Positions 2,581 through 50,700 of a DNA stretch of 64,000 bases are shown one piece after another. The position numbers and the translations under genes were made by a program. Every line of letters begins with the position of its first letter. Position 1 is the first letter of the stretch. This stretch comes from Botryococcus braunii (lineage: Eukaryota; Chlorophyta; Trebouxiophyceae), in assembly GCA_002005505.1 (NCBI GenBank), contig KV908374.1, forward strand, positions 608,533 to 672,532, written 5' to 3'. The notes beneath the pieces are model-generated. The model did no database searches. It was not told where the DNA came from and was given only the letters and a program-made list of their open reading frames with translations.

Positions 2581-2937
2581 GGTGTGCTTTATTCCAGTCC
2601 TAAGTACAATACTGTACGATACGACACGGTACGATAAATTACGATAAATTACGGCGAACTACGACGAACGTTCGCCTTATTCCTTTCGAACTATCCAAGT
2701 CCGCCTTTATTGACACATCCCTATTTATTATTTATTAAAACAATACAATGCTTGTGACACAACCGATAAACAATCCGAACAAGATAAATATGACACAGGT
2801 GTAGCTCAGTTCACAATGCTTTCCTAAAGTGGCTATCCATACAACACAGTTTCTTTATGATACATTGTCCATACTGTACACATACTGTACACATAAGGTA
2901 CACATATAGTACATAGAAAGAAATCCATCCCAAGATG

Positions 2938-3009
2938 CCAAGTAGTCCATATCCAAGGGTTCCAAGTAGCCCATAGCCAAGGGTTCCAAGTAGCCCATAG
3001 CCAAGGGTT
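2938..3009. repeat. 24-bp tandem repeat, three copies
   Basis: Three head-to-tail copies of a 24-bp unit beginning CCAAGTAG and ending CCAAGGGTT (2938-2961, 2962-2985, 2986-3009). The first copy differs from the other two at two positions. Confidence 0.85.
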
Positions 3010-3302
3010 CCAAGTCACTTCTGTACTTCAAGCCCACGTCCCAAGTGCTAGTTAAGCAGACTGCGGTTGCGCGCCATGTGTACTTCAATTCCCATCCCTG
3101 AATGCAGAACCCCGAGTTCAATGCATCGAAGCGGTATGAGGCCTCATGCCACACATACCGAGGTAGGCAACCTACCCCGTCCCTTGTCCCAAAGTACACA
3201 AGATATACAGTCCCTACCATAGGTCCCGTCCCATGTATTCCCAGACACCAGGTGGGAACTCCACAAGTGGAATGAGGGGGACAACCGTCCGGAGGGGCCC
3301 GT

Positions 3303-3689
3303 TCAAGGGAAGGTGTCGCGCAGCGCCACCTGGTCCCAAATGGGCGGGGCGAGCCCCTGGAGTCTATGATAGGTATTAACCAGCCCGGGATGGGTCTCGA
3401 ATGCCTCCTGAGATTCCCATGAGTCCTCTGTGGCCCCATGGCCTGCCCACTTTACAAGGTACTCGAGAAAGGGTGTGCCATCCTCAAAATGGTAGGAGAA
3501 CCCATCCTTGTCGTACAACAGCCGGTGATCGACTAGTGCATCCACTACCCACTCCAGGTGAGTGGTGCCATCCGCTTTGGTGATGACTTTTGGGGGGCAG
3601 TATCCACGCGACTGCGCCTCCTCACGTGTCCAGTATGGCTTCAAATAGCAGACATTTATGCGGGGGTGGATGTCCAACCGGTCCGGAAG
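3303..3689 (-). pseudogene. Element B pol, chromodomain piece
   Basis: On the minus strand it opens with the last part of the integrase (IHPRINVCYLKPYW) and continues into a chromodomain: VVDALVDHRLLY, FLEYLVKWAGHG, EDSWESQEAF, THPGLVNTYHRLQG, with a stop at 3303. The chromodomain is longer than usual between the first and second strands (extra KDGFSYHFEDGTP). The 5' end at 3689 is the border of the 3690-4790 insertion. GGAAG at 3685-3689 is its TSD, and the frame continues into 4796-5232 once the insertion is removed. Codons upstream of 3690 in the open frame belong to the insertion. Confidence 0.85.
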
Positions 3690-4188
3690 TGTTGGAATTT
3701 GTGTACTCTCAGGACAATCCAAGGATGACAAATTTTGACCTGAATAAATTAGCTGTATAGTTGACAATGTGTTCAACTCAAAGGAAACTCTTTGATAAAC
3801 AGCCAGTGGCCTTATGGCCACAAGTAGGAATGGATAAAGTATCTCAGAACATGGTAGAGAAGGACTTTCCTGTTGTTTGTGGCTATTAAAATTGAGTGTA
3901 TCCTAATTGTTAATAACGTGATAAACTCAATTGGGATAAGGGCCAATTTCCAAGGCTCTGAACCTCAACTCTGATACGAATTCATGAAAAAGGGGCCAGA
4001 ACAGCGCAAGTCAACGCGCTGGTCTGATAATACTAGGAGCGACTGACCGAAGTCTCAAGCAGTCAATCCGTTGTGTTTGTGAAACGTCTTTGTTGTCTCA
4101 AACACTGACTCTCAGCCTGATCTCAATTAACTCTTATCTCTGTTGGCATCTTGTATGCATTGTGTTAGATCAAGAGGAGATCAGACTG

Positions 4189-4279
4189 GTGAGACGCACG
4201 TCTGTCGCTTACGTTATTCTAGCAGCCGTAAGTGCTGGCTTATTGAGTTAACTAAGAAAGTATTCTTGGTAATGTGCAG
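4189..4279 (+). other. Intron 1 (91 bp, GT-AG)
   Basis: Starts GTGAGACG and ends AATGTGCAG. The flanking exon blocks are fused without it at 4658/4659 in the second copy. The exact GT-AG boundary and its precise absence downstream support a spliced origin. Confidence 0.85.
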
Positions 4280-4338
4280 GCCTGTTAAACTGCTTCCATC
4301 ATACAATGTTATTGATGTTGAAAGTATTTACTTACTTG

Positions 4339-4424
4339 GTAAGCAGTTTACGCTGCACGTTGGTTTGCAGACAAGTAACCGTATTTGAGTTACCAGCAAG
4401 ATACTGATTGTGTAACATGCACAG
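4339..4424 (+). other. Intron 2 (86 bp, GT-AG)
   Basis: Starts GTAAGCAG and ends CATGCACAG. It is missing at the corresponding position of the second copy (after 4717), where TACTTG joins GATGACAC directly. Confidence 0.85.
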
Positions 4425-4530
4425 GATGACACATGCATATGTATCATCGTCTGTGATTTATAATATTAAATACAAACTGGATCTTGCAGGTAATCGTTAG
4501 ATAGACCAGTGTCGTATACTACCCGGTGTA

Positions 4531-4790
4531 AGTCAATCCGTTGTGTTTGTGAAACGTCTTTGTTGTCTCAAACACTGACTCTCAGCCTGATCTCAATTAA
4601 CTCTTATCTCTGTTGGCATCTTGTATGCATTGTGTTAGATCAAGAGGAGATCAGACTGGCCTGTTAAACTGCTTCCATCATACAATGTTATTGATGTTGA
4701 AAGTATTTACTTACTTGGATGACACATGCATATGTATCATCGTCTGTGATTTATAATATTAAATACAAACTGGATCTTGCAGGATCCACA
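4531..4790 (+). repeat. Spliced copy of the duplicated segment plus LTR end (candidate R-U5)
   Basis: The 252 bp at 4531-4782 match the three exon blocks of the upstream copy with no difference by eye and with both introns removed. The last 8 bp (GATCCACA) follow directly where the first copy has GTAATCG, consistent with a third splice joining exon 3 to the LTR end. The block would correspond to a minus-strand strong-stop product made from spliced RNA. Confidence 0.75.
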
Positions 4791-5232
4791 GGAAGATCCA
4801 GTGTGACGAAGTTAACGTTGTCGGGCGTGACCGCCATGACCCTGAAGGGTCCCACGTGCCTGGGCTGCAGCTTGCTGAATCTGTTTGAAGTTAGCGTGGG
4901 GGCCGCACGGGTTGAAAGGAGGACATAGTCCCCTTCCTGGTAGATGGCCTCCCTCCTATGCCGGTTGGCATAGGCCGTCTGACGGTCTTGAGCTGCACGC
5001 AAACACTTCCTTGCAAGGGTGATTTTGGCTTGCATTTTTCTCATGAAGAGATCAGCCCTATCCACCTTAGTGCCCTCCATGTGTCCCACCGCAAACGGTA
5101 TATTTGGATCTTGCCCATATGTTAACCTGAAGGGTGTGGAGTTTAGGGAAGTTTGCCAAGAGTTGTTGTAGGCAAATTCCGCCACTGAAAGGTAATCCTC
5201 CCACTCCTTTGGGTTATCCTTGACATAGTGTT
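4791..5232 (-). pseudogene. Element B pol, integrase C-terminal part
   Basis: The minus strand encodes the segment after the integrase catalytic core: DNPKEWEDYLSVAEFAYNNS, then NSTPFRLTYGQDP, a helical stretch (KITLARKCLRAAQDRQTAYANRHRR in parts) and the EGDYVLLST / HVGPFRVM modules typical of gypsy integrase C termini. It is bounded at 5232 by element A (TSD GTGTT, 5228-5232) and at 4791 by the solo LTR. The reading frame is open throughout. Confidence 0.88.
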
Positions 5233-5402
5233 TGTAACGTACTTCCGGATACGTCCACCCGTCGGATACGGGTCTCACGTGGTCTTCGACCACGAGGGTG
5301 CATACGACCCGGTATGCACCTGTGTGAGGTCATTCTCATACGAGCCTTTGTCTTAGATCTTGCATCTAGCCTTTGTCTTCGTGAATTTCCTAGATCATTA
5401 CA
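5233..5402 (+). repeat. Element A 5' LTR
   Basis: Starts TGTAACGTACTTCC and ends GATCATTACA. At 170 bp it is short for a gypsy LTR. It differs from the 3' LTR only at 5339 by eye. Confidence 0.93.
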
Positions 5403-16220: not shown

Positions 16221-19200
16221 GAAGGTCCCGTGCCCGGGCTTGTCTTCTTGCCAGAAGACCCCTTCTTGGCCTCTTGCCAGGGCAGTCGTCGGCGTGAACA
16301 GATGTACACTCCACGTGTACACATTCCCACGAAGAAGCAGTGAAGTCGCTAACTTCAGGGCGGATAGTAGGGGCAGGGGCTGGACGACACTTAGCCACCA
16401 AGTCAGGGGACGTTCTGTGATCACGCGAACGTATGGGTAAACCACGACCCCCCGGTGACGCAGCTTGACAGGCTCGTGCTGCTGTGTTTCCCCTAGTCAA
16501 CCTTCCCACGACGACGTGCCCCGCCTCTTGGTGCCCGTGCGTTGACTTTGTCCCAGTATCCCTTTACAACATTGGGAGCATTTGCCAAATTCCGTTCCTC
16601 TTCCCAGGTGTCATGCTCTGACGAGGAACCCGTCCAGCGGACAAGGTACTCATACTTGGGACGGCCACGTGAATTGACACGACGGTGGTCCATTAAGGCT
16701 TCCACCTCCTACTCATCCTCCCCCTCCAGCACCTCTGCCGGTGGTGGGGGTTGCATCGAACCATCCCGACGGTAGCGTTCCAGGTTGGAGACATAAAAGA
16801 CATCATGAATCCGCCATCGTGCTGGGAGGTCAAGCTCATAAGCTTGGGTACCCACACGTTTCACCACTTGGAACGGCCCTACCCAACGCGGGAGGAGCTT
16901 GGGCGTGCCCACCTTGAAACGAAGGTTCTTTGAGGAGAGGCGGACCCAGTCCCCCACACCAAATTGAACTTTCCTTCGTTTGGTGTTGGCATACTGCGCT
17001 TGTCTCGCAGTGGCCACCCGATGGGTCATCCTGGCCTCATTGATGAGGCGTTGCATGCCCTGAACAAAGTCAGACGCACCAGGTACCCGTCTGTTGGGGA
17101 GAATCGTGACTGGCAGGTGGGGTTGAAACCCGTAGTTCAGCAAGAACGGGCGAGGACCCCATGGATTCGTGATCGCAATTATTGATCGCGAATTCTGCAC
17201 AGACCAACTTCTCATCCTAATCATCCTGGGACTTGGCCACATACATGCGTAGCATGTCCTCGAGCACTCGATTCACTCGCTCAGTCTGCCCATCCGTTTG
17301 CGGATGGTAGGCTGTCGACATGGCTTGTCGAGTCCCAATGGATTGACACAAGGCTCTAGAAAAGTGGCTGGTGAAGAGCTTATCTCTATCAGATACCACC
17401 ACTTGGGGAACACCATGCAACTTCCACACATTGTCAACGTACAGCTTAGCCGTATACTAAGCCGTAGCTTTGGTGGTTGTTGGCATAAGATGCACCATCT
17501 TGGTCAGCTTATCCACTACGACGAAAATGGCATCATGACCCTTGCCTGTTCTAGGCAGTTGGGTAATGAGATCCATAGTCACCGTGTGCCAAGGATTCAG
17601 CGGCAACTCTATAGGTTGCAGCAACCCCGCAGGCAAAGTGTTCCGAGCCTTGTTCTTCTGACACAAGTGGCACGTTAGCACGTAACGTTCGATGTCAGCA
17701 AGCATGGTAGGCCACCAATAATGGCGCCTTACCAAGGCCAAGGTTTTCTTCACTCCTTGATGGCCAGCATACGGGCTATCATGCAGTTCCTTAAGGATGT
17801 GAGCTCGCAGCCCAAAAGCATCCGGAACCACGGCCTTCCCTTCCCTCAGAAGGAAGCCGTTAAAGTCTAGCAGACCTTCAACATTCTGCTTATCTTGGAA
17901 CCATGGGTCTTGAGAAGACCCTGGACAAATTTGTCCTTCCAAGATAGAGCAACCCCGGCGGCGGCACTCCCCTCCCCCGCAGAGCGGATAGTACCAACCA
18001 AGGCACAAAGAGAGAGCGTTGGCAGACAACGGTGCGCCGGGTGCGAACACCCACCAATCACCACGCCATTGATGATTGGACAAGGAGCCTCGTAGTCGGA
18101 CGGATGCCGACTCAAAGCGTCAGCCACCACATTGGACGTCCCTGGGGCATAGTCCATGCGAAAATTGAACCGCGAAAGGAACTCAGCCCACCTGGTTTGC
18201 CGTCTACTTAAAGTAGGCAAAGTGTCCAAGTAAGGGATAGCCTTGTGGTCCGTGACCACACGAAACTCAGGGGCCCCCTCCAGGTAGCACCTCCAGACTG
18301 TCAATGCATGCACCACAGCGAGAAGTTCTTGCTCCCTAGTAGGATAGTTAACCTCAGCGGGAGTCAAACGACGACTCTCGTAGGCAACTGGGCGACCCTC
18401 CTGGTACAACACGGCCCCCAACCCTGCCAAAGACGCATCGCAATGGACCTCAAACGGCTTTGAGAAGTCAGGATACGCTAAGCAAGGTGCATGTGTCAAG
18501 GCATGTTTAATCTCGGTAAACGCCCGAACACACCCAGCACTCCATACCCAGGTCACACCTTGGCGTAGGAGTCTGTACAGTGGCGATGCAAGTGCTGCAA
18601 AATTGCGAACAAACTTGCGAAAGTAAGTTGCCAGCCCCAGGAAAGACCGCAACTCGCCAACATTCTTCGGTGTGCTCCAATTAGCAACTGAAGCCACCTT
18701 ACGTGGGTCCACTTTAATCCCATCTGCTGAGACTAAATGGCCCAAGTACTCCAGCTCATCCTTGGCGAAAGAGCACTTCTTTAGGTTAGCATACAACTTA
18801 TGCTGCCGCAACAGTTCAAGGACTTTGCGGAGATGCTCCCTATGCTCTTCAATGGACTTGCTGTAGATGAGGATGTCATCAAGGTACACGAGCACAAACT
18901 TGTGCAGGTAAGGAGCAAAGATAGCAATCATGGCAGTTTGAAACGTGGCCGGGGCATTAGTCAGCCCAAATGGCAAAACCCGCCACTCGAACAACCCCGC
19001 GGGTGTTCTGAAAGCTGTCTTTGGCATATCCTCATCTGTGATCCGGATCTGGTGATAGCCAGACGTGAGGTCAAGACTAGAGAACACTGTAGAACCCTGC
19101 AGTTGATCAAGAGTTTCATCGATACGAGGCATCGGATACCTGTTCTTGACCGTCTGTCGATTCAAAGCTCGGTAATCAATGACCATCCGGAGGATTCCAT

Positions 19201-21503
19201 CCTTCTTTTGCACAAAAAGAATGGGCGCACCATAGGGTGATGTAGACGGCTGTATATACCCTTTGTCCAACAATAGCTTTGTCTGGCGTAACGCCTCATC
19301 ATACTCTCAGCGTGAAAGCCGGTACAACGGACGAGACGGTGGACGAGCATGTGGATCGCTCAAGGGTATAGTGTGTCTAACCCCTTGCCTCTCAGGCGGA
19401 AGGTGCGGGACATCTTCAGGGAAAACATCTTGGAATTCACTGAGTATGTCAACAACAGGAGAGTTGGGAGAAGGAATGGAGACATTCGGATCGGTAGATA
19501 GATCGGTTACAATTGCCAGAAAGGACTGGCAGCCCTTCCTGCTTAACCTTCTAGCCTGCACTGCAGACAAAACCAATCTAGGCACATCCTCCACTTCTGA
19601 ACCCTTCAAAGGCCTCTCCTCCTTAGGCGGGCAACGCAAAACGAACGGCTTGTTCTTTCTTGTATACCCCCTAACGGTGTCCTCTTCAAACATGAGATTT
19701 GCACGGAATGTCTTTAACCAGGGAGTCCCCAACAGCACATTCCAATCCATGGCAAAGTCTAGCACAAGACACGACACCTTAGCAAACTGTACCCCCTGGA
19801 TGACATTGTCTAAGACAGCACATCCGATGTGGTTTACAGTTCTCCCGTCAGCCAACTTAATGCTTAAAGAATCCCCCTTCGGCGGCACAATCTCCAAGTG
19901 AAGGGCTTTAGCAAAGTCTGCACTGACCACATTGCAAGAAGCTCCCGAGTCCAGCATCGCCGTGGCCTTGCTCCCCTGCACCTCGGCAGGAAACACCAAG
20001 CTGTGACACGGCTTCTTGACAAGCAAATGCATGAATAGACGTCAAACATGCAAGGCTTACATCGCCAAGCGAAGGCCCACACCTTCAAGCATAAGAAGGT
20101 CCCGTGCCCGGGCTTGTCTTCTTGCCAGAAGACCCCTTCTTGGCCTCTTGCCGGGGCAGTCGAATACAAAGTGGTCTGGGTTGCATCTGAAGCAAACTCC
20201 CCGAGCCAGCTTGCATGTTGCCTCCCGCATGTCCAGGCTTAGGCCATGCTTCTTTTGAAGCTTGGCCAAGTGCCGTATGCCTCCTGTAGGAGGTGGTTGC
20301 TGGCAGGATGCTTTGTCCCCCGGTCCCGAGGAATTTCCCCTTCCTCGCGTTCAGCCACCTTCTCCTTTTCCTTGGAGACACCTGAGCACATCGCCTACAA
20401 AGATTCAGCATATGTGGTAGCTTCACCACCCCCGCCACATCGCTCATTGCACGCCACACCGGCAACTTGCATAGTGAGGTGAAGCAGAGCGGGTTTCAGA
20501 CTAGCCCAAGAGGACAAATCTTTCATGAGGCAATGATGGAAGCCAAACCCCCACGTAAAGCTCAACCACATTTATGGCAGCTCCCAAAGCCCCATAAATG
20601 CACAAAATCTTAATTGAAGAACCCGATTGCCGTGGAACCCCGAACCAAATCGACCATCCACGCAAAGTTTGTGTTCAATCAACAAGATGCCACAAATCCA
20701 GCCGAGCACTAAACAGCCTTTCAAAAGAGAAAGCTTTTCAGTTCCATGCTACTCGGTGTCAATCAACAAAGCAAGACCGCGTCATATCCGTGTAATATCC
20801 GTGTAGGATCGGCATCCGGAAAAGTTGACACTTTACCACCGAAATCCCAACGATATGCTCGAAACACCAAAGTTTCATCAAGGCAATGCAAGTTGATAAC
20901 ATTTGCAAAGGGTTAGCAACCCAAAGTACACCAAATGAGGGGAAGCGTACACTCACTATCGTGAAGTGCCATCTTCCTCCCCCACCGTCCCCACGGAGAC
21001 GACGGAGCCAAACGCCATTAGAAAGATTACAGAAAAAATCCGTACTTTCTGGCTTGGATCCACACACCAAGCGCGGCGTCGACCCTCGCAGGCCACAACC
21101 ATCCCCGTCATCGGAACTTATATGGGTGCGAAGAATGGATTCTCCCAACCAAAGTCCATGAACTAGATACCAAGATGTTGTTGATCCTTCGATCTAGTGG
21201 GAAACAACCCAAATAGAACGACAGGCAACAACGAAGACACACTGAAGCATCGACACCATCCGCAAGACACACTTAAGCGTCAAACAGGATCAACAACCAA
21301 CATCGCAAATCCACCGACTTGGATATGGGCCACCAAAATGTAATATTCTTGCAAAGGATGGCCGTGCACCGACGAAAGTGCTAGTATGGTCCGTACACCA
21401 TACCATATACTGTGCGAGCCTACGAGGCTACACCCAGTACCAATGTACCGCCCGGCACGTGCAGGGACGAGCACCGGCACCGTCTGCCTACCGGCGCGCT
21501 ACA
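16221..21503 (-). pseudogene. C1: chromovirus pol element, alpha type, disabled
   Basis: A gag scrap (16221-16288) meets the C tail at GGGCAGTCG; the copy then runs on the minus strand from tail to 5' LTR (21503-21339). Domains in sense order: leader, gag zinc knuckle (20269-20057, CFRCNPDHFVFDC), protease DSGAS (20032-19307), RT/RNase H (19273-17867, YLDDILIYS), integrase HHCC and core, chromodomain (16705-16493). Lesions: TGA after RLSR near 19310, frameshift near 17920, TAG after TKATA (17457), TAG after AKSQDD (17217), frameshift after HESMGSS, TAG in the chromodomain start (16706). Gag has no recognisable capsid domain. Most lesions recur in the other C copies. Confidence 0.88.
21339..21503 (-). 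repeat. C/D LTR shared between C1 and D2
   Basis: 165 bp, TG...CA. It serves as 5' LTR of C1 on its left and as 3' LTR of the D fragment on its right, the arrangement expected from recombination between LTRs of adjacent elements. Confidence 0.85.
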
Positions 21504-22045: not shown

Positions 22046-25000
22046 AAGGCCACTTTGTATTCGACTGCCCCGGCAAGAGGCCAAGAAGGGGTCTTCTGGC
22101 AAGAAGACAAGCCCGGGCACGGGACCTTCTTATGCTTGAAGGTGTGGGCCTTCGCTTGGCGATGTAAGCCTTGCATGTTTGACGTCTATTCATGCATTTG
22201 CTTGTCAAGAAGCCGTGTCACAGCTTGGTGTTTCCTGCCGAGGTGCAGGGGAGCAAGGCCACGGCGATGCTGGACTCGGGAGCTTCTTGCAATGTGGTCA
22301 GTGCAGACTTTGCTAAAGCCCTTCACTTGGAGATTGTGCCGCCGAAGGGGGATTCTTTAAGCATTAAGTTGGCTGACGGGAGAACTGTAAACCACATCGG
22401 ATGTGCTGTCTTAGACATTGTCATCCAGGGGGTACAGTTTGCTAAGGTGTCGTGTCTTGTGCTAGACTTTGCCATGGATTGGAATGTGCTGTTGGGGACT
22501 CCCTGGTTAAAGACATTCCGTGCAAATCTCATGTTTGAAGAGGACACCGTTAGGGGGTATACAAGAAAGAACAAGCCGTTCGTTTTGCGTTGCCCGCCTA
22601 AGGAGGAGAGGCCTTTGAAGGGTTCAGAAGTGGAGGATGTGCCTAGATTGGTTTTGTCTGCAGTGCAGGCTAGAAGGTTAAGCAGGAAGGGCTGCCAGTC
22701 CTTTCTGGCAATTGTAACCGATCTATCTACCGATCCGAATGTCTCCATTCCTTCTCCCAACTCTCCTGTTGTTGACATACTCAGTGAATTCCAAGATGTT
22801 TTCCCTGAAGATGTCCCGCACCTTCCGCCTGAGAGGCAAGGGGTTAGACACACTATACCCTTGAGCGATCCACATGCTCGTCCACCGTCTCGTCCGTTGT
22901 ACCGGCTTTCACGCTGAGAGTATGATGAGGCGTTACGCCAGACAAAGCTATTGTTGGACAAAGGGTATATACAGCCGTCTACATCACCCTATGGTGCGCC
23001 CATTCTTTTTGTGCAAAAGAAGGATGGAATCCTCCGGATGGTCATTGATTACCGAGCTTTGAATCGACAGACGGTCAAGAACAGGTATCCGATGCCTCGT
23101 ATCGATGAAACTCTTGATCAACTGCAGGGTTCTACAGTGTTCTCTAGTCTTGACCTCACGTCTGGCTATCACCAGATCCGGATCACAGATGAGGATATGC
23201 CAAAGACAGCTTTCAGAACACCCGCGGGGTTGTTCGAGTGGCGGGTTTTGCCATTTGGGCTGACTAATGCCCCGGCCACGTTTCAAACTGCCATGATTGC
23301 TATCTTTGCTCCTTACCTGCACAAGTTTGTGCTCGTGTATCTTGATGACATCCTCATCTACAGCAAGTCCATTGAAGAGCATAGGGAGCATCTCCGCAAA
23401 GTCCTTGAACTGTTGCGGCAGCATAAGTTGTATGCTAACCTAAAGAAGTGCTCTTTCGCCAAGGATGAGCTGGAGTACTTGGGCCATTTAGTCTCAGCAG
23501 ATGGGATTAAAGTGGACCCACGTAAGGTGGCTTCAGTTGCTAATTGGAGCACACCGAAGAATGTTGGCGAGTTGCGGTCTTTCCTGGGGCTGGCAACTTA
23601 CTTTCGCAAGTTTGTTCGCAATTTTGCAGCACTTGCATCGCCACTGTACAGACTCCTACGCCAAGGTGTGACCTGGGTATGGAGTGCTGGGTGTGTTCGG
23701 GCGTTTACCGAGATTAAACATGCCTTGACACATGCACCTTGCTTAGCGTATCCTGACTTCTCAAAGCCGTTTGAGGTCCATTGCGATGCGTCTTTGGCAG
23801 GGTTGGGGGCCGTGTTGTACCAGGAGGGTCGCCCAGTTGCCTACGAGAGTCGTCGCTTGACTCCCGCTGAGGTTAACTATCCTACTGGGGAGCAAGAACT
23901 TCTAGCTGTGGTGCATGCATTGACAGTCTGGAGGTGCTACCTAGAGGGGGCCCCTGAGTTTCGTGTAGTCACGGACCACAAGGCATCACTTATTTGGACA
24001 CTTTGCCTACTTTAAGTAGACGGCAAACCAGGTGGGCAGAGTTCCTTTCAGGTTCAATTTTCGCATGGACTATGCCCCCGGAACGTCCAATGTGGTGGCT
24101 GACGCTCTGAGTCGGCATCCGTCCGACTATGAGGCTCCTTGTCCAATCATCAATGGCGTGGTGATTGGTGGGTGTTCGCACCCGGCGCACCGTTGTCTGC
24201 CAACGCTCTCTCTTTGTGCCTTGGTTGGCACTATCCGCTCTGCGGGGGAGGGGAGTGCTGCGGCCGGGGTTGCTCTGTCTTGGAAGGACAAATTTGTCCA
24301 GGGTTATCTCAAGACCCATGGTTCCAAGATAAGCAGAATGTTGAAGGTCTGCTAGACTTTGACGGCTTCCTTCTGAGGGAGGGGAAGGCCGTGGTTCCGG
24401 ATGCTTTCGGGCTGCGAGCTCACATCCTCAAGGAACTGCATGATAGCCCGTATGCTGGCCATCAAGGAGTGAAGAAAACCTTGGCCTGGTAAGGCGCCAT
24501 TATTGGTGGCCTACCATGCTTGCTGACATCGAACGTTACGTGCTAACGTGCCACTTGTGTCAGAAGAACAAGGCTCGGAACACTTTGCCTGCGGGGTTGC
24601 TGCAACCTTTACAGTTGCCGCTGAATCCTTGGCACACGGTGACTATGGATTTCATTACCCAATTGCCTAGGACAGGCAAGGGTCATGATGCCATTTTCGT
24701 CGTAGTGGATAAGCTGACCAAGATGGTGCATCTTATGCCCACAACCACCAAGGCTACGGCTGAGCAGACGGCTAAGCTGTACGTTGACAATGTGTGGAAG
24801 TTGCATGGTGTTCCCCAAGTGGTGGTATCTGATAGAGATAAGCTCTTCACCAGCCACTTTTCTAGAGCCTTGTGTCAATCCATTGGGACTCGACAAGCCA
24901 TGTCGACAGCCTACCATCCGCAAACGGATGGGCAGACTGAGCGAGTGAATCGAGTGCTCGAGGACATGCTACGCATGTATGTGGCCAAGTCCCAGGATGA

Positions 25001-26333
25001 TTAGGATGAGAAGTTGGTCTGTGCAGAATTCGCGATCAATAATTGCGATCACGAATCCATGGGGTCCTCGCCCGTTCTTGCTGAACTACGGGTTTCAACC
25101 CCACCTGCCAGTCACGATTCTCCCCAACAGACGGGTACCTGGTGCGTCTGACTTTGTCCAGGGCATGCAACGCCTCATCAATGAGGCCAGGATGACCCAT
25201 CGGGTGGCCACTGCGAGACAAGCGCAGTATGCCAACACCAAACGAAGGAAAGTTCAATTTGGTGTGGGGGACTGGGTCCGCCTCTCCTCAAAGAACCTTC
25301 GTTTCAAGGTGGGCACGCCCAAGCTCCTCCCGCGTTGGGTAGGGCCGTTCCAAGTGGTGAAACGTGTGGGTACCCAAGCTTATGAGCTTGACCTCCCAGC
25401 ACGATGGCGGATTCATGATGTCTTTCATGTCTCCAACCTGGAACGCTACCGTCGGGATGGTTCGATGCAACCCCCACCACCGGCAGAGGTGCTGGAGGGG
25501 GAGGATGAGTAGGAGGTGGAAGCCTTAATGGACCACCGTCGTGTCAATTCACGTGGCCGTCCCAAGTATGAGTACCTTGTCCGCTGGACGGGTTCCTCGT
25601 CAGAGCATGACACCTGGGAAGAGGAACGGAATTTGGCAAATGCTCCCAATGTTGTAAAGGGATACTGGGACAAAGTCAACGCACGGGCACCAAGAGGCGG
25701 GGCACGTCGTCGTGGGAAGGTTGACTAGGGGAAACACAGCAGCACGAGCCTGTCAAGCTGCGTCACCGGGGGTCGTGGTTTACCCATACGTTCGCGTGAT
25801 CACAGAACGTCCCCTGACTTGGTGGCTAAGTGTCGTCCAGCCCCTGCCCCTACTATCCGCCCTGAAGTTAGCACTTCACTGCTTCTTCGTGGGAATGTGT
25901 ACACGTGGAGTGTACATCTGTTCACGCCGACGACTGCCCTTTGGGCCCCGTCACTGCGGGATTTTGGTCTAGGCGTACCATAGAGATACCTCAGGCAAGT
26001 GTACACCCAGGCTGGCAGTTGCGGCTGCGGTTTGGTGTCTGGAGGAGACTCACCGGCTCAATGTATAAGATATAGAAGTGTAGCAGTGACCTTCTATATG
26101 CCTCTGCCTGTGACTGTGGCTTGCTTCGGCAGGCCTCCCGGGAGCTCGGTCACCTAGGAGGGGGAGAATGTAGCGCGCCGGTAGGCAGACGGTGCCGGGG
26201 ATCGGCCCCGCACGTGCCGGGCGGTACATTGGTACTGGGTGTAGCCTCATAGGCTCGCACTATATATGGTATGGTGCTCGGACCATACTAGCACTTTCGT
26301 CGGTGCAGGGCCATCCTTTCCAAGAATATTACA
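22046..26333 (+). pseudogene. C2: chromovirus pol element, beta type, disabled
   Basis: Starts inside gag (zinc knuckle cut after the second Cys), then protease (22192-22917, DSGAS), TGA, RT/RNase H (22951-24015), integrase (24516-25004), C-terminal integrase (24979-25512), chromodomain (25516-25728), tail and LTR (26169-26333). It differs from C1 by retaining CAG where C1 has TAG after the TKATAE segment, and by QPLQLPL and MDFITQLP. Four one-base losses relative to its duplicate C2' break RNase H and integrase near 23985, 24049, 24306 and 24486. It shares the TGA after RLSR and the later TAGs with C1. Confidence 0.87.
26169..26333 (+). repeat. C LTR (+)
   Basis: 165 bp, directly after the polypurine tract. 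It is followed by the same 14-bp leader stub and gag switch seen after the LTR at 16043-16206. Confidence 0.87.
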
Positions 26334-26347
26334 TTTTGGTGGCCCAT

Positions 26348-29300
26348 GAAGGTCCGTGCCCGGGCTTGTCTTCTTGCCAGAAGACCCTTCTTGGCTCTTG
26401 CCAGGGCAGTCGTCGGCGTGAACAGATGTACACTCCACGTGTACACATTCCCACGAAGAAGCAGTGAAGTCGCTAACTTCAGGGCGGATAGTAGGGGCAG
26501 GGGCTGGACGACACTTAGCCACCAAGTCAGGGGACGTTCTGTGATCACGCGAACGTATGGGTAAACCACGACCCCCGGTGACGCAGCTTGACAGGCTCGT
26601 GCTGCTGTGTTTCCCCTAGTCAACCTTCCCACGACGACGTGCCCCGCCTCTTGGTGCCGTGCGTTGACTTTGTCCCAGTATCCCTTTACAACATTGGGAG
26701 CATTTGCCAAATTCCGTTCCTCTTCCCAGGTGTCATGCTCTGACGAGGAACCCGTCCAGCGGACAAGGTACTCATACTTGGGACGGCCACGTGAATTGAC
26801 ACGACGGTGGTCCATTAAGGCTTCCACCTCCTACTCATCCTCCCCTCCAGCACCTCTGCCGGTGGTGGGGGTTGCATCGAACCATCCCGACGGTAGCGTT
26901 CCAGGTTGGAGACATAAAAGACATCATGAATCCGCCATCGTGCTGGGAGGTCAAGCTCATAAGCTTGGGTACCCACACGTTTCACCACTTGGAACGGCCC
27001 TACCCAACGCGGGAGGAGCTTGGGCGTGCCCACCTTGAAACGAAGGTTCTTTGAGGAGAGGCGGACCCAGTCCCCCACACCAAATTGAACTTTCCTTCGT
27101 TTGGTGTTGGCATACTGCGCTTGTCTCGCAGTGGCCACCCGATGGGTCATCCTGGCCTCATTGATGAGGCGTTGCATGCCCTGAACAAAGTCAGACGCAC
27201 CAGGTACCCGTCTGTTGGGGAGAATCGTGACTGGCAGGTGGGGTTGAAACCCGTAGTTCAGCAAGAACGGGCGAGGACCCCATGGATTCGTGATCGCAAT
27301 TATTGATCGCGAATTCTGCACAGACCAACTTCTCATCCTAATCATCCTGGGACTTGGCCACATACATGCGTAGCATGTCCTCGAGCACTCGATTCACTCG
27401 CTCAGTCTGCCCATCCGTTTGCGGATGGTAGGCTGTCGACATGGCTTGTCGAGTCCCAATGGATTGACACAAGGCTCTAGAAAAGTGGCTGGTGAAGAGC
27501 TTATCTCTATCAGATACCACCACTTGGGGAACACCATGCAACTTCCACACATTGTCAACGTACAGCTTAGCCGTATACTAAGCCGTAGCTTTGGTGGTTG
27601 TTGGCATAAGATGCACCATCTTGGTCAGCTTATCCACTACGACGAAAATGGCATCATGACCCTTGCCTGTTCTAGGCAGTTGGGTAATGAGATCCATAGT
27701 CACCGTGTGCCAAGGATTCAGCGGCAACTCTATAGGTTGCAGCAACCCCGCAGGCAAAGTGTTCCGAGCCTTGTTCTTCTGACACAAGTGGCACGTTAGC
27801 ACGTAACGTTCGATGTCAGCAAGCATGGTAGGCCACCAATAATGGCGCCTTACCAAGGCCAAGGTTTTCTTCACTCCTTGATGGCCAGCATACGGGCTAT
27901 CATGCAGTTCCTTAAGGATGTGAGCTCGCAGCCCAAAAGCATCCGGAACCACGGCCTTCCCTTCCCTCAGAAGGAAGCCGTTAAAGTCTAGCAGACCTTC
28001 AACATTCTGCTTATCTTGGAACCATGGGTCTTGAGAAGACCCTGGACAAATTTGTCCTTCCAAGATAGAGCAACCCCGGCGGCGGCACTCCCCTCCCCCG
28101 CAGAGCGGATAGTACCAACCAAGGCACAAAGAGAGAGCGTTGGCAGACAACGGTGCGCCGGGTGCGAACACCCACCAATCACCACGCCATTGATGATTGG
28201 ACAAGGAGCCTCGTAGTCGGACGGATGCCGACTCAAAGCGTCAGCCACCACATTGGACGTCCCTGGGGCATAGTCCATGCGAAAATTGAACCGCGAAAGG
28301 AACTCAGCCCACCTGGTTTGCCGTCTACTTAAAGTAGGCAAAGTGTCCAAGTAAGGGATAGCCTTGTGGTCCGTGACCACACGAAACTCAGGGGCCCCCT
28401 CCAGGTAGCACCTCCAGACTGTCAATGCATGCACCACAGCGAGAAGTTCTTGCTCCCTAGTAGGATAGTTAACCTCAGCGGGAGTCAAACGACGACTCTC
28501 GTAGGCAACTGGGCGACCCTCCTGGTACAACACGGCCCCCAACCCTGCCAAAGACGCATCGCAATGGACCTCAAACGGCTTTGAGAAGTCAGGATACGCT
28601 AAGCAAGGTGCATGTGTCAAGGCATGTTTAATCTCGGTAAACGCCCGAACACACCCAGCACTCCATACCCAGGTCACACCTTGGCGTAGGAGTCTGTACA
28701 GTGGCGATGCAAGTGCTGCAAAATTGCGAACAAACTTGCGAAAGTAAGTTGCCAGCCCCAGGAAAGACCGCAACTCGCCAACATTCTTCGGTGTGCTCCA
28801 ATTAGCAACTGAAGCCACCTTACGTGGGTCCACTTTAATCCCATCTGCTGAGACTAAATGGCCCAAGTACTCCAGCTCATCCTTGGCGAAAGAGCACTTC
28901 TTTAGGTTAGCATACAACTTATGCTGCCGCAACAGTTCAAGGACTTTGCGGAGATGCTCCCTATGCTCTTCAATGGACTTGCTGTAGATGAGGATGTCAT
29001 CAAGGTACACGAGCACAAACTTGTGCAGGTAAGGAGCAAAGATAGCAATCATGGCAGTTTGAAACGTGGCCGGGGCATTAGTCAGCCCAAATGGCAAAAC
29101 CCGCCACTCGAACAACCCCGCGGGTGTTCTGAAAGCTGTCTTTGGCATATCCTCATCTGTGATCCGGATCTGGTGATAGCCAGACGTGAGGTCAAGACTA
29201 GAGAACACTGTAGAACCCTGCAGTTGATCAAGAGTTTCATCGATACGAGGCATCGGATACCTGTTCTTGACCGTCTGTCGATTCAAAGCTCGGTAATCAA

Positions 29301-31623
29301 TGACCATCCGGAGGATTCCATCCTTCTTTTGCACAAAAAGAATGGGCGCACCATAGGGTGATGTAGACGGCTGTATATACCCTTTGTCCAACAATAGCTT
29401 TGTCTGGCGTAACGCCTCATCATACTCTCAGCGTGAAAGCCGGTACAACGGACGAGACGGTGGACGAGCATGTGGATCGCTCAAGGGTATAGTGTGTCTA
29501 ACCCCTTGCCTCTCAGGCGGAAGGTGCGGGACATCTTCAGGGAAAACATCTTGGAATTCACTGAGTATGTCAACAACAGGAGAGTTGGGAGAAGGAATGG
29601 AGACATTCGGATCGGTAGATAGATCGGTTACAATTGCCAGAAAGGACTGGCAGCCCTTCCTGCTTAACCTTCTAGCCTGCACTGCAGACAAAACCAATCT
29701 AGGCACATCCTCCACTTCTGAACCCTTCAAAGGCCTCTCCTCCTTAGGCGGGCAACGCAAAACGAACGGCTTGTTCTTTCTTGTATACCCCCTAACGGTG
29801 TCCTCTTCAAACATGAGATTTGCACGGAATGTCTTTAACCAGGGAGTCCCCAACAGCACATTCCAATCCATGGCAAAGTCTAGCACAAGACACGACACCT
29901 TAGCAAACTGTACCCCCTGGATGACATTGTCTAAGACAGCACATCCGATGTGGTTTACAGTTCTCCCGTCAGCCAACTTAATGCTTAAAGAATCCCCCTT
30001 CGGCGGCACAATCTCCAAGTGAAGGGCTTTAGCAAAGTCTGCACTGACCACATTGCAAGAAGCTCCCGAGTCCAGCATCGCCGTGGCCTTGCTCCCCTGC
30101 ACCTCGGCAGGAAACACCAAGCTGTGACACGGCTTCTTGACAAGCAAATGCATGAATAGACGTCAAACATGCAAGGCTTACATCGCCAAGCGAAGGCCCA
30201 CACCTTCAAGCATAAGAAGGTCCCGTGCCCGGGCTTGTCTTCTTGCCAGAAGACCCCTTCTTGGCCTCTTGCCGGGGCAGTCGAATACAAAGTGGTCTGG
30301 GTTGCATCTGAAGCAAACTCCCCGAGCCAGCTTGCATGTTGCCTCCCGCATGTCCAGGCTTAGGCCATGCTTCTTTTGAAGCTTGGCCAAGTGCCGTATG
30401 CCTCCTGTAGGAGGTGGTTGCTGGCAGGATGCTTTGTCCCCCGGTCCCGAGGAATTTCCCCTTCCTCGCGTTCAGCCACCTTCTCCTTTTCCTTGGAGAC
30501 ACCTGAGCACATCGCCTACAAAGATTCAGCATATGTGGTAGCTTCACCACCCCCGCCACATCGCTCATTGCACGCCACACCGGCAACTTGCATAGTGAGG
30601 TGAAGCAGAGCGGGTTTCAGACTAGCCCAAGAGGACAAATCTTTCATGAGGCAATGATGGAAGCCAAACCCCCACGTAAAGCTCAACCACATTTATGGCA
30701 GCTCCCAAAGCCCCATAAATGCACAAAATCTTAATTGAAGAACCCGATTGCCGTGGAACCCCGAACCAAATCGACCATCCACGCAAAGTTTGTGTTCAAT
30801 CAACAAGATGCCACAAATCCAGCCGAGCACTAAACAGCCTTTCAAAAGAGAAAGCTTTTCAGTTCCATGCTACTCGGTGTCAATCAACAAAGCAAGACCG
30901 CGTCATATCCGTGTAATATCCGTGTAGGATCGGCATCCGGAAAAGTTGACACTTTACCACCGAAATCCCAACGATATGCTCGAAACACCAAAGTTTCATC
31001 AAGGCAATGCAAGTTGATAACATTTGCAAAGGGTTAGCAACCCAAAGTACACCAAATGAGGGGAAGCGTACACTCACTATCGTGAAGTGCCATCTTCCTC
31101 CCCCACCGTCCCCACGGAGACGACGGAGCCAAACGCCATTAGAAAGATTACAGAAAAAATCCGTACTTTCTGGCTTGGATCCACACACCAAGCGCGGCGT
31201 CGACCCTCGCAGGCCACAACCATCCCCGTCATCGGAACTTATATGGGTGCGAAGAATGGATTCTCCCAACCAAAGTCCATGAACTAGATACCAAGATGTT
31301 GTTGATCCTTCGATCTAGTGGGAAACAACCCAAATAGAACGACAGGCAACAACGAAGACACACTGAAGCATCGACACCATCCGCAAGACACACTTAAGCG
31401 TCAAACAGGATCAACAACCAACATCGCAAATCCACCGACTTGGATATGGGCCACCAAAATGTAATATTCTTGCAAAGGATGGCCGTGCACCGACGAAAGT
31501 GCTAGTATGGTCCGTACACCATACCATATACTGTGCGAGCCTACGAGGCTACACCCAGTACCAATGTACCGCCCGGCACGTGCGGGACGAGCACCGGCAC
31601 CGTCTGCCTACCGGCGCGCTACA
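26348..31623 (-). pseudogene. C1': second copy of the alpha C element
   Basis: Duplicate of 16221-21503. Protease 30153-29428, RT/RNase H 29394-27988, integrase 28204-27578, C-terminal parts 27550-26609, gag knuckle 30390-30178, LTR 31623-31460. It carries every nonsense and frameshift lesion of C1. The first 500 bp add single-base losses (for example GGTCCGTG for GGTCCCGTG near 26350 and CACGACCCCCGGT for CACGACCCCCCGGT near 26567). Confidence 0.87.
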
Positions 31624-43600: not shown

Positions 43601-46138
43601 AAAACCCGCCACTCGAACAACCCCGCGGGTGTTCTGAAAGCTGTCTTTGGCATATCCTCATCTGTGATCCGGATCTGGTGATAGCCAGACGTGAGGTCAA
43701 GACTAGAGAACACTGTAGAACCCTGCAGTTGATCAAGAGTTTCATCGATACGAGGCATCGGATACCTGTTCTTGACCGTCTGTCGATTCAAAGCTCGGTA
43801 ATCAATGACCATCCGGAGGATTCCATCCTTCTTTTGCACAAAAAGAATGGGCGCACCATAGGGTGATGTAGACGGCTGTATATACCCTTTGTCCAACAAT
43901 AGCTTTGTCTGGCGTAACGCCTCATCATACTCTCAGCGTGAAAGCCGGTACAACGGACGAGACGGTGGACGAGCATGTGGATCGCTCAAGGGTATAGTGT
44001 GTCTAACCCCTTGCCTCTCAGGCGGAAGGTGCGGGACATCTTCAGGGAAAACATCTTGGAATTCACTGAGTATGTCAACAACAGGAGAGTTGGGAGAAGG
44101 AATGGAGACATTCGGATCGGTAGATAGATCGGTTACAATTGCCAGAAAGGACTGGCAGCCCTTCCTGCTTAACCTTCTAGCCTGCACTGCAGACAAAACC
44201 AATCTAGGCACATCCTCCACTTCTGAACCCTTCAAAGGCCTCTCCTCCTTAGGCGGGCAACGCAAAACGAACGGCTTGTTCTTTCTTGTATACCCCCTAA
44301 CGGTGTCCTCTTCAAACATGAGATTTGCACGGAATGTCTTTAACCAGGGAGTCCCCAACAGCACATTCCAATCCATGGCAAAGTCTAGCACAAGACACGA
44401 CACCTTAGCAAACTGTACCCCCTGGATGACATTGTCTAAGACAGCACATCCGATGTGGTTTACAGTTCTCCCGTCAGCCAACTTAATGCTTAAAGAATCC
44501 CCCTTCGGCGGCACAATCTCCAAGTGAAGGGCTTTAGCAAAGTCTGCACTGACCACATTGCAAGAAGCTCCCGAGTCCAGCATCGCCGTGGCCTTGCTCC
44601 CCTGCACCTCGGCAGGAAACACCAAGCTGTGACACGGCTTCTTGACAAGCAAATGCATGAATAGACGTCAAACATGCAAGGCTTACATCGCCAAGCGAAG
44701 GCCCACACCTTCAAGCATAAGAAGGTCCCGTGCCCGGGCTTGTCTTCTTGCCAGAAGACCCCTTCTTGGCCTCTTGCCGGGGCAGTCGAATACAAAGTGG
44801 TCTGGGTTGCATCTGAAGCAAACTCCCCGAGCCAGCTTGCATGTTGCCTCCCGCATGTCCAGGCTTAGGCCATGCTTCTTTTGAAGCTTGGCCAAGTGCC
44901 GTATGCCTCCTGTAGGAGGTGGTTGCTGGCAGGATGCTTTGTCCCCCGGTCCCGAGGAATTTCCCCTTCCTCGCGTTCAGCCACCTTCTCCTTTTCCTTG
45001 GAGACACCTGAGCACATCGCCTACAAAGATTCAGCATATGTGGTAGCTTCACCACCCCCGCCACATCGCTCATTGCACGCCACACCGGCAACTTGCATAG
45101 TGAGGTGAAGCAGAGCGGGTTTCAGACTAGCCCAAGAGGACAAATCTTTCATGAGGCAATGATGGAAGCCAAACCCCCACGTAAAGCTCAACCACATTTA
45201 TGGCAGCTCCCAAAGCCCCATAAATGCACAAAATCTTAATTGAAGAACCCGATTGCCGTGGAACCCCGAACCAAATCGACGATCCACGCAAAGTTTGTGT
45301 TCAATCAACAAGATGCCACAAATCCAGCCGAGCACTAAACAGCCTTTCAAAAGAGAAAGCTTTTCAGTTCCATGCTACTCGGTGTCAATCAACAAAGCAA
45401 GACCGCGTCATATCCGTGTAATATCCGTGTAGGATCGGCATCCGGAAAAGTTGACACTTTACCACCGAAATCCCAACGATATGCTCGAAACACCAAAGTT
45501 TCATCAAGGCAATGCAAGTTGATAACATTTGCAAAGGGTTAGCAACCCAAAGTACACCAAATGAGGGGAAGCGTACACTCACTATCGTGAAGTGCCATCT
45601 TCCTCCCCCACCGTCCCCACGGAACGACGGAGCCAAACGCCATTAGAAAGATTACAGAAAAATCCGAACTTTCTGCTTGGATCCACACACCAAGCTTGGC
45701 GTCGACCTCGTAGGCCAAACCATCCCCGTCATCGGATCTTATATGGGTGCGAAGAATAGATTCTCCCAACCAAAGTCCATGAACTAGATACCAAGTGTTG
45801 TTGATCCTTCGATCTAGTGGGAAACAACCCAAATAGAACGACAGGCACAACGAAGACACACTTAAGCATCACACCATCCGTAAGACACACTTAAGCGTCA
45901 AGCAGGATCAACAACCAACATCGCAAGTCCACCGACTTGGATATGGGCCACCAAATCCACCGATATGGCCAAAATGTAATATTCTTGGAAAGGATGGCCC
46001 TGCACCGACGAAAGTGCTAGTATGGTCCGACACCATACCATATACTGTGCGAGCCTACGAGGCTACACCCAGTACCAATGTACCGCCCGGCACGTGCGGG
46101 GACGAGCCCCGGCACCGTCTGCCTACCGGCGCGCTACA
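40613..46138 (-). pseudogene. C3: most complete C element
   Basis: 3' LTR fragment (40613-40684), tail, chromodomain and integrase C terminus (42062-41127), integrase (42464-42087), RT/RNase H (43899-42928), protease (44658-43933), gag knuckle (44895-44683), leader and 5' LTR (46138-45975). It alone keeps TAC in the chromodomain start (EDEYEVEAL) and TGG after AKSQDD, where the other copies have TAG. It still has the TGA after RLSR, a TAG after TKATAE and frameshifts near 41730-41790, 42475, 42550 and 42900. It may be closest to the functional ancestor. Confidence 0.87.
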
Positions 46139-47742: not shown

Positions 47743-50700
47743 TTCTCCCCCTCCTAGGTGACCGAGCTCCCGGGAGGCCTGCCGAAGCAAGCCACAGTCA
47801 CAGGCAGAGGCATATAGAAGGTCACTGCTACACTTCTATATCTTATACATTGAGCCGGTGAGTCTCCTCCAGACACCAAACCGCAGCCGCAACTGCCAGC
47901 CTGGGTGTACACTTGCCTGAGGTATCTCTATGGTACGCCTAGACCAAAATCCCGCAGTGACGGGGCCCAAAGGGCAGTCGTCGGCGTGAACAGATGTACA
48001 CTCCACGTGTACACATTCCCACGAAGAAGCAGTGAAGTTGCTAACTTCAGGGCGGATAGTAGGGGCAGGGGCTGGACGACACTTAGCCACCAAGTCAGGG
48101 GACGTTCTGTGATCACGCGAACGTATGGGTAAACCACGACCCCCCGGTGACGCAGCTTGACAGGCTCGTGCTGCTGTGTTTCCCCTAGTCAACCTTCCCA
48201 CGACGACGTGCCCCGCCTCTTGGTGCCCGTGCGTTGACTTTGTCCCAGTATCCCTTTACAACATTGGGAGCATTTGCCAAATTCCGTTCCTCTTCCCAGG
48301 TGTCATGCTCTGACGAGGAACCCGTCCAGCGGACAAGGTACTCATACTTGGGACGGCCACGTGAATTGACACGACGGTGGTCCATTAAGGCTTCCACCTC
48401 CTACTCATCCTCCCCCTCCAGCACCTCTGCCGGTGGTGGGGGTTGCATCGAACCATCCCGACGGTAGCGTTCCAGGTTGGAGACATGAAAGACATCATGA
48501 ATCCGCCATCGTGCTGGGAGGTCAAGCTCATAAGCTTGGGTACCCACACGTTTCACCACTTGGAACGGCCCTACCCAACGCGGGAGGAGCTTGGGCGTGC
48601 CCACCTTGAAACGAAGGTTCTTTGAGGAGAGGCGGACCCAGTCCCCCACACCAAATTGAACTTTCCTTCGTTTGGTGTTGGCATACTGCGCTTGTCTCGC
48701 AGTGGCCACCCGATGGGTCATCCTGGCCTCATTGATGAGGCGTTGCATGCCCTGAACAAAGTCAGACGCACCAGGTACCCGTCTGTTGGGGAGAATCGTG
48801 ACTGGCAGGTGGGGTTGAAACCCGTAGTTCAGCAAGAACGGGCGAGGACCCCATGGATTCGTGATCGCAATTATTGATCGCGAATTCTGCACAGACCAAC
48901 TTCTCATCCTAATCATCCTGGGACTTGGCCACATACATGCGTAGCATGTCCTCGAGCACTCGATTCACTCGCTCAGTCTGCCCATCCGTTTGCGGATGGT
49001 AGGCTGTCGACATGGCTTGTCGAGTCCCAATGGATTGACACAAGGCTCTAGAAAAGTGGCTGGTGAAGAGCTTATCTCTATCAGATACCACCACTTGGGG
49101 AACACCATGCAACTTCCACACATTGTCAACGTACAGCTTAGCCGTATACTAAGCCGTAGCTTTGGTGGTTGTTGGCATAAGATGCACCATCTTGGTCAGC
49201 TTATCCACTACGACGAAAATGGCATCATGACCCTTGCCTGTTCTAGGCAGTTGGGTAATGAGATCCATAGTCACCGTGTGCCAAGGATTCAGCGGCAACT
49301 CTATAGGTTGCAGCAACCCCGCAGGCAAAGTGTTCCGAGCCTTGTTCTTCTGACACAAGTGGCACGTTAGCACGTAACGTTCGATGTCAGCAAGCATGGT
49401 AGGCCACCAATAATGGCGCCTTACCAAGGCCAAGGTTTTCTTCACTCCTTGATGGCCAGCATACGGGCTATCATGCAGTTCCTTAAGGATGTGAGCTCGC
49501 AGCCCAAAAGCATCCGGAACCACGGCCTTCCCTTCCCTCAGAAGGAAGCCGTTAAAGTCTAGCAGACCTTCAACATTCTGCTTATCTTGGAACCATGGGT
49601 CTTGAGAAGACCCTGGACAAATTTGTCCTTCCAAGATAGAGCAACCCCGGCGGCGGCACTCCCCTCCCCCGCAGAGCGGATAGTACCAACCAAGGCACAA
49701 AGAGAGAGCGTTGGCAGACAACGGTGCGCCGGGTGCGAACACCCACCAATCACCACGCCATTGATGATTGGACAAGGAGCCTCGTAGTCGGACGGATGCC
49801 GACTCAAAGCGTCAGCCACCACATTGGACGTCCCTGGGGCATAGTCCATGCGAAAATTGAACCGCGAAAGGAACTCGGCCCACCTGGTTTGCCGTCTACT
49901 TAAAGTAGGCAAAGTGTCCAAGTAAGGGATAGCCTTGTGGTCCGTGACCACACGAAACTCAGGGGCCCCCTCCAGGTAGCACCTCCAGACTGTCAATGCA
50001 TGCACCACAGCGAGAAGTTCTTGCTCCCTAGTAGGATAGTTAACCTCAGCGGGAGTCAAACGACGACTCTCGTAGGCAACTGGGCGACCCTCCTGGTACA
50101 ACACGGCCCCCAACCCTGCCAAAGACGCATCGCAATGGACCTCAAACGGCTTTGAGAAGTCAGGATACGCTAAGCAAGGTGCATGTGTCAAGGCATGTTT
50201 AATCTCGGTAAACGCCCGAACACACCCAGCACTCCATACCCAGGTCACACCTTGGCGTAGGAGTCTGTACAGTGGCGATGCAAGTGCTGCAAAATTGCGA
50301 ACAAACTTGCGAAAGTAAGTTGCCAGCCCCAGGAAAGACCGCAACTCGCCAACATTCTTCGGTGTGCTCCAATTAGCAACTGAAGCCACCTTACGTGGGT
50401 CCACTTTAATCCCATCTGCTGAGACTAAATGGCCCAAGTACTCCAGCTCATCCTTGGCGAAAGAGCACTTCTTTAGGTTAGCATACAACTTATGCTGCCG
50501 CAACAGTTCAAGGACTTTGCGGAGATGCTCCCTATGCTCTTCAATGGACTTGCTGTAGATGAGGATGTCATCAAGGTACACGAGCACAAACTTGTGCAGG
50601 TAAGGAGCAAAGATAGCAATCATGGCAGTTTGAAACGTGGCCGGGGCATTAGTCAGCCCAAATGGCAAAACCCGCCACTCGAACAACCCCGCGGGTGTTC

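Follow-up and report, generated by a model that had tools for sequence, protein, structure and literature searches.

Intron-bearing and spliced leader copies within one Copia LTR of Botryococcus braunii: a terminal repeat probably rebuilt through RNA splicing in every replication cycle

Why would a long terminal repeat (LTR) hold the same leader twice, once with introns and once without them? The question is raised by an insertion in the window, by which we mean the whole 64,000-nt stretch of Botryococcus braunii DNA analyzed here (Table 1). A 252-bp leader is present twice in the second half of this LTR, as copy 1 (4061–4489) and copy 2 (4531–4782). Its three blocks are 100% identical between the copies, and the two GT-AG segments that interrupt copy 1 are exactly absent from copy 2. 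In these respects, and in its TG...CA ends and perfect 5-bp target site duplication (TSD), the locus is as an earlier note on this DNA had described it. The reading we favor, drawn from genome sequence and given a probability of about 0.86, is that each replication cycle of a Ty1/copia element rebuilds the LTR by way of RNA splicing.

Table 1. Parts of the LTR and its borders, in window coordinates.
Feature	Position	Strand	Status
Left TSD, GGAAG	3685..3689	.	observed
Solo LTR (TG..CA) of a Ty1/copia element, 1101 bp	3690..4790	+	observed
U3 proper with presumed core promoter	3690..4060	+	promoter role putative
Putative transcription start, A of GC/AGTC	4061..4061	+	predicted
Exon 1, copy 1 (128 bp)	4061..4188	+	observed
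GT-AG segment read as intron 1, GTGAGA..GTGCAG, 91 bp	4189..4279	+	observed
Exon 2, copy 1 (59 bp)	4280..4338	+	observed
GT-AG segment read as intron 2, GTAAGC..GCACAG, 86 bp	4339..4424	+	observed
Exon 3, copy 1 (65 bp); ends TTGCAG, then donor GTAATCG	4425..4489	+	observed
Putative intron 3, GTAATCG..TTGCAG, enclosing the whole of copy 2	4490..4782	+	predicted
Segment S: intron 3 start, with most of the putative poly(A) signal	4490..4530	+	
TGTAA across the S/e1 junction, candidate poly(A) signal	4527..4531	+	
Predicted R, from the start of exon 1 copy 2 to cleavage ~17 nt past the TGTAA start	4531..4544	+	predicted
Exon 1, copy 2 (proposed spliced cDNA copy)	4531..4658	+	observed
Exon 2, copy 2	4659..4717	+	observed
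Exon 3, copy 2; terminal TTGCAG is the would-be intron 3 acceptor	4718..4782	+	observed
GATCCACA, LTR 3' end; primer binding site (PBS) next in full-length relatives	4783..4790	+	
Right TSD, GGAAG	4791..4795	.	observed

The window copy of the element is a solo LTR without genes. The window itself is a nest of elements: 19 ORFs, drawn from 41 listed of at least 170 aa, were scanned, and 17 of them have retroelement Pfam matches (mostly Gypsy-type with a chromodomain, one match falling below the curated cut-off) and two have none. A set of ORF lengths (241, 212, 468, 208, and 177 aa) recurs at 16709–20032, 22192–25512, 27578–30153, 43889–44658, and 48401–51724, and looks like several copies of one family. 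The minus-strand ORF adjoining the LTR (4751–5293) has a partial Tf2-1-like integrase SH3 match (25.2 bits, below the curated cut-off of 30) whose end lies close to the LTR, as would be expected had the LTR interrupted the end of a Gypsy integrase. Given this weak match, the LTR probably lies within a Gypsy-type element.

A search of the genome (176 Mb, 989 contigs) with the window LTR listed 46 matches, 40 of the 161 first-look candidates having been scored. At least 1087 of the 1101 LTR bases are covered by 38 of them, the window's own included, so that near-full-length relatives lie at no fewer than 37 other places. Further loci were sought with copy 2 and with two junction patterns, which found 134 LTR ends and 107 U3/E1 starts (up to three mismatches; about 100 of each among the matches listed). 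Of the 121 loci fetched, two had no module match and the other 119 gave 127 locus-strand entries, which include overlapping fetches and probable allelic pairs.

The full order U3-E1-I1-E2-I2-E3-S-e1-e2-e3 (capitals for copy 1, lower case for copy 2) is found in 64 of the 127 entries, and another 35 keep the same order as far as they run, being truncated, cut by the fetch, or too diverged in a module. Chance as the source of the layout is ruled out by these 64 entries and the 38 near-full-length matches, and an assembly artefact, which the earlier note had named as a possible refutation, by dozens of loci with differing flanks and TSDs. The note had also predicted relatives with a single, intron-bearing R; the complete entries instead hold two leader copies, one with introns, and no one-R relative occurs among the 127. 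The nearest is L062 (U3-E1-I1-E2-I2-E3-end, without the third intron), for which a deletion between E3 and e3 is a possible reading. Nine entries, representing seven insertions, are simple LTRs in which U3 is joined to the intronless copy (L046, L053, L054, L055, L063, L064, L086, L087, and L100), two are triple LTRs (L035 and L075), and 15 are fragments. A spliced copy 1 followed by S was found in none of the 127. Both triple LTRs are preceded by the polypurine tract (PPT), as 3' LTRs, and have a normal 5' LTR upstream; the TSD matches for the L009/L035 pair and not for L074/L075. In one further entry, L067, exon 2 and intron 2 are rearranged in tandem within the LTR.

What kind of element carries these LTRs can be read from their surroundings. 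A frame preceding a 3' LTR (L008:2-1462) encodes an RVT_2 reverse transcriptase (RT; PF07727, 3.9e-63). After the LTR, ATGGTTATGGGCC follows in 45 of 127 entries, with variants in four more, and the PPT AAGGGGAAGAT precedes it in 38 of 127, near variants also occurring. Eleven solo LTRs are flanked by a 5-bp TSD; compact LTR pairs lie about 6.1 kb apart (e.g., C454, C16, and C842), and other TSD-matched pairs lie 12–52 kb apart, presumably holding nested insertions. TG..CA LTRs, a short TSD, a PBS, and a PPT, as expected of Ty1/copia, are thus present. A first tRNA pattern search gave no match; when the PBS was compared with a tRNA-Met gene of the same genome, 14 contiguous nt matched in the anticodon arm, and 16 of 22 aligned positions agreed. 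Among the best 120 of 7928 protein matches, the RT is closest to a metagenome protein (75%), and named matches include Volvox africanus (45%) and flowering plants (33–39%). In keeping with a green host, the genome has RbcS matches, and one exon matches RbcS chains of solved structure, the top ones being from green algae; rbcL gave no match in the assembly. Open frames of up to 1480 aa were listed in the RT search of the genome, and a scan of viral contigs gave no match. In L006 a 206-aa ORF (2623–3243) without a Pfam match lies shortly past the PBS and before the next long frame.

Splice sites are conserved across the family. In 85 rows (84 LTRs and a window row that repeats L001), GT stands at all three donors in 85 of 85, and AG at acceptors 1, 2, and 3 in 85, 84, and 82, respectively; the exceptions are L078 at acceptor 2, and L004 and the cut-off rows L034 and L114 at acceptor 3. 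Mean pairwise divergence is 16.4% in intron 1, 13.0% in intron 2, 8.2–12.1% in the exons, and 6.0% in S. Intron 1 was unmatched in L056, L057, L070, L080, and L089, where 90–91 nt stand in its place. The third donor, at 4490, opens the GTAATCG intron that the earlier note had anticipated, and the acceptor that fits it is formed by the last bases of copy 2 (AG at 4781–4782, before GATCCACA). Splicing of this third intron would join exon 3 to the LTR end and the PBS, which gives exactly the sequence of copy 2.

Where the RNA would begin and end can be proposed from the junctions. The last 60 bp of U3 are mostly conserved across 65 LTRs, and copy 1 begins GC/AGTC in one representative of each of four families (the other three are described below), which fits a start site at that A and speaks for the start at 4061 proposed earlier. 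An AGCGC..GCGCT inverted repeat lies about 40–60 bp upstream of the putative start in the window (4001–4025), L123, and L125, that is, in three of the four families. For the RNA end we used a set of 78 LTRs, which leaves out L034, L037, L043, L048, L058, and L114 (truncation or large indels) and the duplicate window row. The motif TGTAA spans the S/e1 junction in 75 of these 78 and the U3/E1 junction in none; it is not unique to that junction, since intron 2 of the window family holds it too (44 times across 65 LTRs). The principal poly(A) motif described for chlorophytes is UGUAA, with a peak near -17 from the cleavage site (PMC1868727). With that spacing, the TGTAA at 4527–4531 predicts an RNA end near 4544 and an R of about 13 nt, rather than an end exactly at 4530 as the earlier note had it. 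A short R would thus exist, so that strand transfer could be homologous. In the 5' LTR the same TGTAA would fall inside intron 3. An ATTAAA in exon 3, considered by eye as the poly(A) signal, was dropped once TGTAA was found at the junction.

These elements suggest a cycle. In the 5' LTR, transcription would start at the first base of copy 1, and three introns would be spliced from the leader, the last carrying both the poly(A) signal and all of copy 2; its removal would join exon 3 to the LTR end and the PBS. Minus-strand strong-stop cDNA primed there would copy exons 1, 2, and 3 together with the LTR end. The RNA would terminate, in the 3' LTR, a few bases into copy 2, and the strong-stop cDNA could anneal to the short R at 4531 and then be extended across S, copy 1, and U3. 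In the LTR so made, the intron-bearing copy 1 would stem from the RNA 3' end and the intronless copy 2 from the spliced 5' end. What weighs against such regeneration is that copy 1 at the RNA 3' end must escape splicing of the very introns removed at the 5' end; possible reasons for the asymmetry are cap-proximal splicing or transfer from a spliced to an unspliced RNA.

The latter possibility amounts to a trans version of the same explanation, with the spliced strong-stop donor and the unspliced acceptor being different RNA molecules. It would account for copy 1 keeping its introns beside a fully spliced copy 2, and we regard it as conceivable though rather doubtful. A fully unspliced RNA would also be primed and would yield triple LTRs, of which there are only two among the 127 entries, and both of these are 3' LTRs accompanied at their locus by a normal 5' LTR. 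In each of two elements, C35 and C322, both LTRs are simple, with no 5'-to-3' difference over 633 bp and with matching TSDs, which indicates that simple LTRs were made during transposition. The two share an extra A that is absent from 16 close normal LTRs, so one simple element may have moved. TGTAA occurs in none of the eight complete simple LTRs, nor in the part of L053 that was read, so that such LTRs might be dead ends, against which the possible movement of one simple element speaks. We considered simple and triple LTRs as proof of alternative strand transfer or of an unspliced template and rejected them as such, because E1 x e1 exchange predicts the same products.

Renewal of copy 2 by splicing, in cis or in trans, would leave a trace in how the two copies evolve. 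Within an LTR they differ by 1.4% on average, compared to 9.8% between LTRs for copy 1 (n = 78), and they are exactly equal in 24 of 78. Across the 78 LTRs no column shows a fixed difference between the copies; 63 columns are polymorphic in both, with 98.5% concordance against 65% expected if the copies were independent, and none of 10000 permutations gave a copy difference as low as that observed. No branch of a tree parts copy 1 from copy 2, the best split classifying 52%. In 50 of 78 LTRs the copy 2s nearest to copy 1 include the LTR's own, which is expected for close relatives and is weaker than one might wish. The largest differences between copies are in L084, L088, L118, and L077, three of which (L077, L084, and L088) are truncated in exon 1; with six such rows removed, the 72 clean LTRs show 0.7% within and 8.7% between. 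Two subfamilies (51 and 21 LTRs) are distinguished in each copy by 40 exon columns (gaps included), with no majority difference between the copies within either. Length variants, too, are common to both copies in most rows (exon 1 127/127, 128/128, and 129/129; exon 2 60/60), L026, L028, L033, L059, and L118 being among the exceptions.

Elements with both LTRs allow a sharper comparison. We took 15 hand-picked elements whose LTRs lie on the same contig and strand, have an identical 5-bp TSD, and both belong to the set of 78; excluded were pairs in which an LTR is simple, triple, or rearranged (L055/L054, L086/L087, L009/L035, and L067/L068) or the TSDs are unequal (L059/L058 and L074/L075). 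Copy 1 differs from copy 2 at 30 of 7549 sites, and a given copy differs between the 5' and the 3' LTR likewise at 30 of 7549. Over 3770 sites in the 15 elements, 30 are private to one of the four copies and none is split by copy, by LTR, or crosswise; the four exon copies were therefore identical at insertion. An intronless copy can be spliced from an intron-bearing one and not the reverse, so copy 2 is the derived one. These patterns indicate that copy 2 is regenerated from copy 1 in each replication cycle, most simply, as the earlier note had suggested for its origin, via strong-stop cDNA made on spliced RNA.

An old duplication whose copies are kept alike by gene conversion or recombination at the DNA level could be thought to give similar identity, and exchange between E1 and e1, or template switching, does occur, as is shown by the simple LTRs (nine entries, seven insertions) and the two triple LTRs among the 127 entries. 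Conversion inside inserted LTRs would leave LTR-split sites, however, and there are none among the 3770 despite 30 private mutations; its tracts would also need to stay within exons of 59–128 bp without moving the introns. We therefore consider this explanation very improbable. Still less credit is due to a one-off accident, the form in which the earlier note had cast its model: spliced-RNA strong-stop cDNA joined non-homologously, once, to an RNA 3' end at 4530, with ordinary inheritance thereafter. Such an event accounts for the layout of one LTR and may have been the origin of the first one, but it predicts copy-specific differences, none of which is fixed in the 78 LTRs; moreover, the 40 subfamily differences are mirrored in both copies and no site is copy-split in the 15 elements. 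Of that note's interpretation, the origin of copy 2 in spliced RNA, the start at 4061, and the GTAATCG intron are supported; the one-R relatives, the RNA end at 4530, and the single accident are not, the last in view of a layout common to the relatives and renewed at every insertion.

The same design recurs in other Copia families, which bears on the accident as well. The RT search of the genome gave groups at 78, 75, and 58% identity, and we read the region after the RT in seven loci (3' LTRs only; two per family for the three families, plus L128). None of the seven has a blastn match (E 0.01) to any of the eight modules of the window LTR, and six of them hold an intron-bearing copy 1 and a spliced copy 2, a layout shared without detectable LTR similarity that a single accident in one family does not predict. 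The families have two, two, and three introns, respectively, the last with four exons: exons of about 125, 62, and 65 and introns of 92 and 83 in L122/L123; about 114, 64, and 64 with introns of 92 and 85 in L125; and about 110, 82, 74, and 69 with introns of 123, 86, and 104 in L126/L127. Each internal intron of L122, L123, L125, L126, and L127 can be placed as GT-AG at the copy 2 junction; in L124, a relative of L125, indels kept the script from placing introns. L128 matches L124 over copy 1, and copy 2 is absent from the stretch read. TGTAA lies at or 3–7 nt before the S/e1-type junction in six of six loci (spanning it in L122–L125, 7 nt before it in L126 and L127), and in L122, L126, and L127 this is the sole TGTAA in the stretch read. 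In L129, from a more distant Copia lineage, the GT-AG spliced pattern is absent after the RT; a 139-bp exact direct repeat lies there (269–407 and 590–728, reverse complement of the locus).

Introns can arise by insertion in green algae, which lends some plausibility to introner-like or MITE-like segments having been inserted into copy 1 of a tandem duplication, yet insertion leaves the renewal of copy 2 unaccounted for and all internal introns of the five resolved loci from other families are GT-AG at the copy 2 junction, and we give it hardly any weight.

Reconstruction of the LTR through splicing differs from the replication of known elements in several ways. In textbook LTR replication the same R stands at both RNA ends, and introns are not expected to survive passage through spliced RNA. 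Spumaviruses, HTLV, and HIV have a splice donor in R or the leader; their genomic RNA is unspliced in the LTR, and splicing yields subgenomic mRNA. The B. braunii elements would resemble them in splicing of the 5' leader and in having the 5' poly(A) site close to a 5' splice site, and would differ in that the reverse-transcribed RNA itself must be spliced within the LTR. By their RVT_2 RT, TG..CA LTRs, 5-bp TSD, PPT AAGGGGAAGAT, and PBS matching the anticodon arm of tRNA-Met, they are like other Ty1/copia elements (Pseudoviridae), and the PBS match resembles the half-tRNA primer of Drosophila copia. Unlike those elements, the window family has an LTR with introns in its leader and a second, spliced version of that leader, by our proposal renewed each cycle.

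A very short R, here predicted at about 13 nt, is shared with the plant Copia LTRs of Sire and Retrofit; that of Sire is 10 bp, and the passages describing these elements mention neither LTR introns nor a doubled R-U5 (PMC3601003). Penelope-like elements are also retroelements that retain introns through retrotransposition, a retention ascribed to antisense or unspliced templates (PMC3846280). They belong to another RT class and have pseudo-LTRs; the elements described here have an RVT_2 RT and LTRs flanked by PBS and PPT, and store an intron-bearing copy beside a spliced one. Among the matches listed for open-licence PMC literature on introns in LTRs, nothing of this kind appeared; two of them concern the ltrB gene and a vector named LTR1.

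Together, these features lead us to favor, with less assurance than the renewal itself, a class of Copia elements in which splicing is obligate in reverse transcription. Its LTR would store a gene-like leader together with that leader's own processed cDNA, in the 5' LTR the last intron would conceal the poly(A) signal, and the roles of RNA start and RNA end would be split between two copies renewed by splicing, across families down to 58% RT identity. Software built on the assumption of a single R per LTR may misinterpret these elements. If the reading is true, the RNA 3' end would supply the copy with introns and the spliced 5' end the copy without them, which would let introns persist through repeated rounds, and reverse transcription would be tied to the spliceosome. 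Placing the signal inside an intron would be a solution to the 5' poly(A) problem, and the start site, the introns, and the RNA end of these retrotransposons would be readable from genome sequence.
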